Origin: Lachnospiraceae bacterium
GTDB lineage: Bacteria > Bacillota > Clostridia > Lachnospirales > Lachnospiraceae
NCBI GenBank assembly: GCA_017620255.1
Contig: JAFZQU010000028.1
Location: 186,001-250,000 of the forward strand
Length of the DNA: 64,000 nucleotides
Direction: 5' to 3'
The translations under genes and the position numbers were made by a program. Shown here piece after piece: positions 48,581-50,629 of this stretch; the stretch's first letter is position 1; each line of letters begins with the position of its first letter. Under the pieces are notes generated by a model. That model did not search any database and had not been told where the DNA came from. It worked only from the letters and a program-made list of their open reading frames with translations.

Positions 48581-48600
48581 GAAAAGAACTAAATGTTGTA

Positions 48601-48633
48601 AAAAAGAGAGCCGCATCATGCGGCTCTCTTTTT
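48601..48633 (-). terminator. terminator of the shorter Ala-rich repeat gene
   Basis: A 15-base-pair stem (AAAAAGAGAGCCGCA with TGCGGCTCTCTTTTT) closes on a TCA loop and ends in T on the minus strand, 20 bases past the stop codon. Confidence 0.9.
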
Positions 48634-48652
48634 CACCGGTAAACGGGACCGG

Positions 48653-49168
48653 TTATTTCTTGATCGTAACGGAATCCAGATATGCCTGAGCTGCTGCAAG
48701 ACCTGCGGCTGCCTTTGCATCTCTGTCAGCTGCTGCTGTCTGAAGTGTCTTGAGTGCTGCGTCCAGGTTAGCCTGTGCAGATGCAAGACCTGCGGCTGCC
48801 TTTGCGTCTCTGTCAGCTGCTGCTGCCTTCAGTGCTGCAAGTACTGCTGCTGCCTGCGGATCCTTTGTCAGATCAGCCTGCTCCAGTGTAGCGATCGCTG
48901 CATCCAGGTATGCCTGTGCAGATGCAAGACCTGCGGCTGCCTTTGCGTCTCTGTCAGCTGCTGCTGCTTTCAGTGTAGCCTGTGCTGCATCCAGATTAGC
49001 CTGTGCCTTTGCAAGGCCTTCTGCTGCCTGACGGTCTCTGTCAGCTGCTGCTCTCTGCAGTGTTGCCTGTGCGTCTGCCATAGCGTCAGCCTTAACGGGT
49101 GCTACAAATACAGAACCTGCTAATGCGATGGCTGTGATCCCTGCAAGTAACTTACCTAATTTCTTCAT
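48653..49168 (-). CDS. secreted Ala-rich 29-residue-repeat protein, short form
   Basis: The 171-residue protein has a signal peptide (MKKLGKLLAGITAIALAG, likely cut after VKADA near residue 29), then four 29-residue units starting at residues 39, 68, 115 and 144. Each unit contains AAADRD, then a Gln/Lys-Ala stretch, GLAxAQAxLD and a linking TL. An 18-residue partial unit sits at 97-114 between units two and three. The sequence should form long Ala-rich amphipathic helices. AGGAGG eight bases upstream fixes the ATG. I recognise no family; the adjacent longer gene is a paralogue. It has its own promoter and terminator. Confidence 0.85.
   Translation of the reverse strand: MKKLGKLLAGITAIALAGSVFVAPVKADAMADAQATLQRAAADRDRQAAEGLAKAQANLDAAQATLKAAAADRDAKAAAGLASAQAYLDAAIATLEQADLTKDPQAAAVLAALKAAAADRDAKAAAGLASAQANLDAALKTLQTAAADRDAKAAAGLAAAQAYLDSVTIKK
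48674..49054 (-). repeat. 87-base coding repeats (four units plus an 18-codon partial)
   Basis: The coding sequence repeats with an 87-base period (29 codons). The partial unit between units two and three is 54 bases, which is 11 codons short of a full unit, so the helical register can be kept. Confidence 0.85.
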
Positions 49169-49203
49169 TATACTATCCTCCTGATAAACTTTAAAAATAA
49201 AAT

Positions 49204-49233
49204 CATCCGAATGCAATTATATCATCCGGATGA
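49204..49233. promoter_or_regulatory. direct repeats flanking the -10 box of the short repeat gene
   Basis: TCATCCGAATG (49204-49214) and TCATCCGGATG (49223-49233) are direct repeats 19 bases apart, one on each side of the -10 box. They may be binding sites of a regulator. Confidence 0.45.
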
Positions 49234-49244
49234 AAAAAGGCAAG
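49217..49244 (-). promoter_or_regulatory. promoter of the short repeat gene
   Basis: On the minus strand TTGCCT and TATAAT are separated by 16 bases, about 50 bases before the ATG. Confidence 0.7.
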
Positions 49245-49260
49245 TGTAAAAAACAACAAA

Positions 49261-49290
49261 ACGGAGAAGCGTGATCTTACGCTTCTCCGT
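49261..49290 (-). terminator. terminator of the longer Ala-rich repeat gene
   Basis: ACGGAGAAGCGT and ACGCTTCTCCGT form a 12-base-pair stem with a six-base loop, followed by TTTTGTTGTTTTTT on the minus strand. Confidence 0.9.
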
Positions 49291-49321
49291 CATTTTGTTG
49301 AATGTGTTCGGATGGTTCCGA

Positions 49322-50539
49322 TCAGAATGCTGCAAGAACAGCTTCTGCTTTTGCTACAGCCGCTTCTGCTTCAGCGATCCACGATGTATATGCAGGATTT
49401 ACTTTTGCAAGATCCTTGCATGCTGCAACGTTACCCTTTGCAATGCGGATGTACTCTTTCAGCAGGCTGATCATGCCGGCTCTTGCCTGGGAAAGGTTCC
49501 AAGCCTGTGCTGTGATCAGTGTAGCCTGAGCTGCATCCAGGTTTGCCTGCGCTGCTGCAAGACCGGCTGCTGCTTTTGCATCTCTGTCAGCTGCTGCGGT
49601 CAGAAGTGTTGCATATGCTGCATCCAGATTTGCCTGAGCTGCTGCAAGACCGGCTGCTGCTTTCGCATCTCTGTCGGCTGCTGCTGTCTTCATGGTAGCA
49701 AGTGCTGCATCCAGATTAGCCTGTGCCTTTGCAAGGCCTTCTGCTGCCTGACGGTCTCTGTCAGCTGCTGCAACTTTCATGGTAGCAAGTGCTGCATCCA
49801 GATTTGCCTGTGCTTTTGCAAGGCCTTCTGCTGCCTGACGGTCTCTGTCAGCTGCTGCAACTTTCATGGTAGCAAGTGCTGCGTCCAGGTTAGCCTGAGC
49901 CTTTGCAAGGCCTTCTGCTGCCTGACGGTCTCTGTCAGCTGCTGCTGTAACCATGGTAGCAAGTGCTGCATCCAGGTTTGCCTGCGCTTTTGCAAGACCT
50001 TCTGCTGCCTGACGATCTCTGTCAGCTGCTGCAACGAGCATCGTAGCCTTCGCTGCATCCAGATTAGCCTGTGCCTTTGCAAGGCCTTCTGCTGCCTGAC
50101 GGTCTCTGTCGGCTGCTGCAACAAGCATTGTCTGATAAGCTGCATCCAGGTTAGCCTGAGCCTTTGCAAGACCTGCGGCTGCCTGTGCATCTCTGTCAGC
50201 TGCTGCGGTTACCATGGTTGCATAAGCTGCATCCAGGTTAGCCTGTGCTGCTGCAAGACCTGCTGCTGCCTGACGGTCTCTGTCAGCTGCTGCTGTCTGC
50301 AGAGTTGCAAGTGCTGCGTCCAGATTTGCCTGTGCTGCTGCAAGACCTGCTGCTGCCTGCGCATCTCTGTCTGCTGCTGCGGTTACCATCGTAGCCTGAG
50401 CTGCTTTCAGATAAGCCATTCCGCTTTCATAACCGGCCTGGGCTTCTGCGATCGCATCGGCTTTTGCAGGAACTACGAAAACGAGGCCCGCCAGAGTCAG
50501 AGTAGCAACTCCGGCTAAAACTTTGCCTAACTTCGTCAT
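49322..50539 (-). CDS. secreted Ala-rich 29-residue-repeat protein, long form
   Basis: The 405-residue protein starts with a signal peptide similar to its neighbour (cut probable after PAKADA near residue 29), followed by ten 29-residue units at residues 53-342. A unit reads roughly TAAADRDxQAA, then xGLAxAQANLDAA, then a variable T(M/L)xx. The 63-residue C-terminal part is different and includes YIRIAKGNVAACKDL with the only Cys and a final Ala/Glu/Lys helix. A period of 29 equals eight helical turns of 3.6 residues, as 7+11+11. GGAGGA precedes the ATG, and a strong promoter lies 60 bases upstream. Extracellular structural, adhesive or surface-coating roles are possible; none is shown. Confidence 0.85.
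   Translation of the reverse strand: MTKLGKVLAGVATLTLAGLVFVVPAKADAIAEAQAGYESGMAYLKAAQATMVTAAADRDAQAAAGLAAAQANLDAALATLQTAAADRDRQAAAGLAAAQANLDAAYATMVTAAADRDAQAAAGLAKAQANLDAAYQTMLVAAADRDRQAAEGLAKAQANLDAAKATMLVAAADRDRQAAEGLAKAQANLDAALATMVTAAADRDRQAAEGLAKAQANLDAALATMKVAAADRDRQAAEGLAKAQANLDAALATMKVAAADRDRQAAEGLAKAQANLDAALATMKTAAADRDAKAAAGLAAAQANLDAAYATLLTAAADRDAKAAAGLAAAQANLDAAQATLITAQAWNLSQARAGMISLLKEYIRIAKGNVAACKDLAKVNPAYTSWIAEAEAAVAKAEAVLAAF
49514..50383 (-). repeat. ten tandem 87-base coding repeats
   Basis: Ten in-frame units of exactly 87 bases. Several neighbouring units are nearly identical at DNA level (for instance the stretch around 49750, 49837 and 49924), which suggests recent expansion by recombination or slippage. 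Confidence 0.9.
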
Positions 50540-50600: not shown

Positions 50601-50629
50601 ATTATAAACAAGAATAGGCGTTATGTAAA
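50601..50629 (-). promoter_or_regulatory. strong promoter of the long repeat gene
   Basis: TTTACA and TATAAT are separated by 17 bases on the minus strand, with AT-rich sequence downstream. The predicted leader is about 55 bases. This is close to consensus and suggests high expression. Confidence 0.8.

Follow-up and report, generated by a model that had tools for sequence, protein, structure and literature searches.

Two neighbouring genes in a contig of a Lachnospiraceae bacterium encode proteins in which a signal peptide is followed by tandem alanine-rich units of 29 residues. The question raised by this locus is what structure a unit of that length would build, and what role such a protein would have once it has left the cell. 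The original prediction, made from a stretch of 64,000 nucleotides that we refer to as the window, read the unit as eight turns of a long continuous helix and the proteins as abundant surface or matrix components.

Our preferred reading, which we hold tentatively but consider quite possible, is that the repeat family consists of abundant Sec-secreted, nearly straight helical rods that pack through small residues and build an extracellular coat or matrix. A more specific version, possible but doubtful, is a genus-restricted, self-assembling helical rod or matrix protein that is among the most abundant products, with an eight-turn unit, a Gly/Ala stripe and a length set by the number of units.

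The gene pair and its setting

The two genes, P0001 and P0002, and the elements associated with them are as follows.

49322..50539, minus strand: P0001, secreted Ala-rich repeat protein of 405 aa, with a signal peptide, one degenerate and ten AAADRD 29-residue units and a C-terminal helical hairpin
48653..49168, minus strand: P0002, secreted Ala-rich repeat protein of 171 aa, with four AAADRD units spaced 29, 47 and 29
49325..49522, minus strand: C-terminal hairpin of P0001 (residues ~340–405), its best-modelled part, with pLDDT block means of 66–85 from residue 341
50601..50629, minus strand: candidate promoter of P0001, TTTACA-17-TATAAT, a consensus match only
49216..49243, minus strand: candidate promoter of P0002, TTGCCT-16-TATAAT with TG before the second hexamer, a consensus match only
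49260..49291, minus strand: terminator hairpin of P0001, from consensus scan and RNA folding
48598..48636, minus strand: terminator hairpin of P0002 with an 18-pair stem, from RNA folding

The adjacent genes lie between putative rpsU and alaS genes and a putative metallophosphoesterase gene (named by reading the ORFs), and are the only copies of the family in their own genome. The start of P0002 is the ATG at 49168, not the TTG upstream at 49216, and a strong Shine-Dalgarno sequence is visible in the DNA of both genes. The candidate promoter of P0001 matches 11 of 12 consensus positions and that of P0002 matches 10 of 12 plus the TG, in a region with seven promoter-like sites against a shuffle mean of 1.6. 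Both terminator hairpins are strong, folding at −26.6 and −29.3 kcal/mol (z −8.0 and −9.2). A near-consensus promoter and a strong terminator for each gene, as had been proposed, hold as candidate sites and by hairpin folding, but the consensus terminator scan lists the hairpin of P0001 and misses that of P0002. The arrangement is not unique: adjacent pairs occur in the window and at loci L049 and L057, and elsewhere the family genes are single.

An antisense ORF of 415 aa (49271–50518, plus strand) probably arises only as a side effect of the repeats, because in its frame the mean dN of 0.25 exceeds the dS of 0.18 (45 pairs).

Anatomy of the repeat unit

The motif P[VA][KRQ]A[DEMS], which we read as a Sec-type signal-peptide cleavage site, occurs within the first 45 residues of all 25 members examined. 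P0001 contains ten AAADRD units with nine spacings, every one of 29 residues, in addition to a degenerate unit at the N-terminus and a non-repeat C-terminal hairpin of ~60 residues. In P0002 an 18-residue unit lies between units 2 and 3, hence the spacing of 47. At lag 29 the identity reaches 0.73 in P0001 and 0.51 in P0002, against maxima of 0.26 and 0.33 respectively over lags 2–60 in 100 shuffles, and Tandem Repeats Finder gives a period of 87 bp with 10.2 copies for P0001. Motif, spacing and shuffle tests thus bear out two adjacent genes that each combine a signal peptide with 29-residue units; the exact count of ten regular units is correct for P0001, but the four units of P0002 are not all regularly spaced. 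Extra identity at lags 7, 47 (18-type) and 51 (22-type) fits quasi-periods of 7 and 11 residues. The units of P0001 differ mostly by synonymous changes, with a mean dN of 0.136 and dS of 0.580 over 36 pairs among nine of the ten units (dN/dS ~0.23); it is therefore the protein that is selected, and the repeat units are under purifying selection.

Across the family we used a set of 193 unit windows from 25 proteins, 174 of them non-redundant. Of 190 anchor spacings, 153 are of 29 residues, 16 of 22, three of 18, three of 51, two of 47 and one each of 58 and 80, with the remaining 11 at 25–27. The common value of 29 equals 7+11+11, while 22 equals 11+11 (29 minus 7) and 18 equals 7+11 (29 minus 11), and spacings of 51, 47, 58 and 80 are sums of these three numbers. 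Accordingly 26 of the 37 irregular spacings are 22, 18 or such sums, and the 11 at 25–27 fall outside the 7/11 scheme. All 22-residue spacings carry an NP-type break with Pro, and probably represent one or two inherited breaks instead of independent events.

Pro is also present in 25 of the 153 regular units. The non-redundant units contain 63 Pro residues, 44 of which occupy positions 25, 27 and 29, and Asn is found most often at position 24. From position 24 to 29 the AAADRD units of P0001 and P0002 are free of Pro, Gly and Asn. The family consensus has a conserved face of A2, R5, A9, G12, G16, L20, I23 and T27, and 85–89% of units carry Ala or Gly at positions 9, 12 and 16. Of the 25 members, 16 retain a C-terminal motif of the IH[ASV]..G[AL] type despite the varying number of units; it is absent from P0001 and P0002.

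Two relatives depart from the common pattern. At the window's own site in genome G012 the gene (L005/L044) alternates units of 29 and 26 residues, the short type having DNG where the long has DRDAKA. A strongly diverged acidic relative of 185 aa (L087, contig C66 of genome G007, ORF 1408–1965) has two recognised anchors 80 residues apart, and its divergence suggests rapid sequence turnover in the repeat family.

Variation in unit number

Three proteins encoded at one common site (L008, L025 and L009 at loci L051, L055 and L053) have 13, 12 and 10 anchors respectively, and so differ by whole units. The copy-number variation that had been suggested as possible between strains is thus found between species at syntenic loci. 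Unit identity within a protein is higher than to the closest other protein in five of 21 cases (P0001, with 0.78 against 0.63, and L005, L006, L012 and L018), equal in two and lower in 14. On these values, units have probably been homogenised in the subfamily of the window, but this does not hold for the family in general.

Codon usage

Codon weights were set with 12 genes read as ribosomal-protein genes from the same genome as the window. P0001 and P0002 score z values of 9.0 and 6.9 over the window background and rank first and second of 53 window genes, while the 12 weight-setting genes themselves score 2.1–6.5. Among the 21 repeat genes at 19 loci of relatives, 17 take first place and the other four take second, in two cases after a sister repeat gene, with z values from 1.6 to 9.6 (the low values including 1.6 at L058, 2.7 at L061 and 2.9 at L063). 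The bias in relatives is a consistent trend and not a calibrated measure, since their ORFs were called mechanically, with 3–15 scored per locus, and the weights came from the window's genome. A codon bias like that of ribosomal-protein genes supports indirectly the proposal that the repeat proteins are abundant.

Evidence for a helix

Family-wide conservation of unit columns peaks at harmonic 8, or 3.625 residues per turn, the best of 14 harmonics (n=174 non-redundant units, permutation p for the maximum 0.008). Among the 59 window-type units, which have D at position 4, harmonic 8 of conservation is not significant (p 0.18) and harmonic 4 leads, and for bulky hydrophobic residues harmonic 8 gives p 0.008 with a p for the maximum of 0.10. 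Taken separately, the first and second halves of the unit agree in phase, at 41 and 38 degrees, the second alone being significant (p 0.32 and 0.001), and the segment that wraps across the unit joint, from 24 to 10, has a conservation phase of 52 (p 0.06). Amphipathicity is weak, because harmonic 8 of Eisenberg hydrophobicity is not significant family-wide (p 0.4). The 3.63-type conservation and the 7/11 steps would place the family as a whole among heptad/hendecad helical rods, which is a class and not a homology, although the window-type subset alone is not significant. Mature P0001 and P0002 have a mean helix-propensity cost of 0.29, compared with a lowest value of 0.33, probably the P0002 ORF itself, and a median of 0.55 for 54 window ORFs scored whole.

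AlphaFold2 models of the single chains, from alignments of six and five sequences, are helical almost throughout P0001 and P0002, at low confidence (mean pLDDT 54.4 and 45.2). In P0001 the helix is broken twice within the repeats, at 147–152 and 255–261, and the C-terminal hairpin turns at an NP sequence (VNPAYT). The equation of 29 residues with eight helical turns is hence backed family-wide by the 3.625 harmonic and by the irregular 22- and 18-residue units, but the models, at this confidence, do not establish a continuous helix. PMC9858780 gives 3.63 residues per turn for an undistorted helix, and describes hendecads as hardly supercoiling and hendecad dimers as needing a small core residue such as Ala. 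This rule of little supercoil and small core residues fits the small-residue stripe of the 29-residue units.

Distribution, anchoring and neighbours

With P0001 as query or with profile A1 the family was found in 20 of the genus's 37 genomes, including 10 of the 17 of good quality, so it extends beyond one strain. Profile A4, which lacks the signal peptide, matched the window's own genome only, both in a family draw of 397 genomes (334 genera) and in an order draw of 392 (173 genera) that overlaps with it. The search for the 29-residue unit across broader groups thus yielded relatives in the genus but, with profile A4, none in these draws. The full profile A1 matched six further genomes in the family draw, with one locus, L034, that may be a distant relative, and the repeat family appears to be largely restricted to one genus. 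Among the matches listed, named relatives include at least four Lachnospiraceae MAGs, three with titles referring to sheep, goat and water buffalo rumen and the fourth without a source. No relatives were found in viral contigs, plasmids or phages.

The original prediction recognised no named family, and the searches agree. For P0001 and P0002, Pfam gave only Prokineticin, below cut-off (E 0.054), NCBIfam gave no match at E up to 1, and no convincing relative was present among PDB sequences. Pfam searches of 23 A1 members gave scattered weak matches, the best being NLRC4_HD (8 of 23, E 7.2e-5) and Terminase_5 (6 of 23, E 2.3e-4), which we read as low complexity.

The proposed surface or matrix location gains no support from anchors: an LPxTG-like motif is absent from the last 60 residues of all 25 members, and the maximum 19-residue hydropathy of the mature parts is 1.35. 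The own genome has sortases, and no SLH domain was found in it (E up to 0.001) or in P0001 and P0002. Family genes sit at different chromosomal sites and their neighbours differ between subfamilies; therefore the repeat genes stand alone. Locus L048 (G012) shares both flanks with the window's site, and L050 (G015) shares the alaS flank on a contig that ends inside the repeat gene. No neighbour gene common to all subfamilies was found, and a cNMP-binding protein adjoins the repeat gene on three of 20 fetched loci (L056, L058 and L063).

A possible helical rod and its rivals

If the preferred rod reading is correct, Sec would export the mature P0001-type protein, and each 29-residue unit would form eight alpha-helical turns (7+11+11), so that successive units would continue a single nearly straight, hardly supercoiled helix. 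The conserved stripe of small and medium residues would let helices pack closely side by side, and gain or loss of whole units would tune the length of the rod, with 350 residues giving ~52 nm by arithmetic at 0.15 nm per residue. The secreted rods would then assemble without a covalent anchor into a coat or matrix around the cell. This continuity, the lateral packing and the coat or matrix role are what we infer; because no anchor was found, the secreted protein could just as well be freely soluble. Were the model true, codon usage like that of ribosomal proteins would be spent on a secreted protein without any Pfam or NCBIfam model, and the family would be a natural example of a modular alpha-helical rod, almost straight and lengthened or shortened by 29 residues at a time. 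It would bear on lineage-specific coats of rumen Lachnospiraceae and could provide a design template for straight helical fibres.

The main rival, which we consider unlikely, is an antiparallel zigzag in which each unit is a helix of 24–26 residues with a turn at 24–29 (SINEAT or VNPSLVP type), the chain folding back as a sheet or bundle. The positions of Pro and Asn in other subfamilies could fit such turns, protein L006 of genome G028 has Pro at position 29 in several units, and the best-modelled part of P0001, its hairpin, has a similar NP turn. However, the AAADRD units of the window lack Pro, Gly and Asn at these positions, and from one unit to the next the conservation stays close to a single phase. 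Nor is a hairpin with two symmetric arms likely, because there are unequal numbers of spacings ahead of and behind the mid-protein break (6 and 5 in L008, 6 and 3 in L024).

Rather improbable is an amphipathic protein, surface-active or LEA-like, that would protect the cell and be mostly unfolded in solution and helical on membranes, lipid or other surfaces. Group 3 LEA proteins are Ala-rich with 11-residue quasi-repeats, and the high Ala content and few aromatics, the 7- and 11-residue quasi-periods and the low pLDDT would suit this explanation. It is at odds with the weak hydrophobic moment, the very high intrinsic helix propensity and a family-wide stripe to which G12 and G16 belong, which differs from a plain division into charged and hydrophobic residues; the strict 29-residue period and the secretion signal also set the family apart from Group 3 LEA proteins. 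We regard as very unlikely a soluble secreted rod acting as a spacer or ligand carrier instead of a matrix polymer, with a conserved C-terminus recognised by a cell-wall or polysaccharide partner. The persistence of the C-terminal motif would be explained, but P0001 and P0002 lack it and the neighbouring genes offer no constant partner, the cNMP-binding protein being present on three of the 20 fetched loci. Streptococcal antigen I/II also has Ala-rich helical A-repeats, which form the stalk of a secreted surface protein; it is a sortase-anchored adhesin with longer repeats, whereas no LPxTG-like motif was found in the 25 members of this family. FilP and Scy of actinobacteria resemble the family as long hendecad-containing helical rods with an Ala-rich core, and PMC9858780 presents them as proteins of cell division that carry a DivIVA-like motif at the N-terminus. 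The repeat family differs in its signal peptide and 7+11+11 unit, and neither P0001 nor P0002 has a Pfam match to DivIVA at E up to 1.

Other observations in the genus

The AlaRS sequences of the genus (L103–L131 and L050; 51042–53762 in the window) form two groups with a very long branch between them, at 45–50% and 65–88% identity to that of the window, partial copies aside; alaS may have been exchanged horizontally long ago. Two AlaRS copies in genome G021 are both of the distant type (48 and 49%), and contamination could also account for them. Finally, a secreted protein of 245 aa in contig C164 of genome G007 (L023/L067) does not contain 29-residue repeats and has an N-terminal region resembling the C-terminal hairpin of P0001, with an INP turn and 36% identity to residues 327–401; its downstream neighbour has a Big_2 domain.
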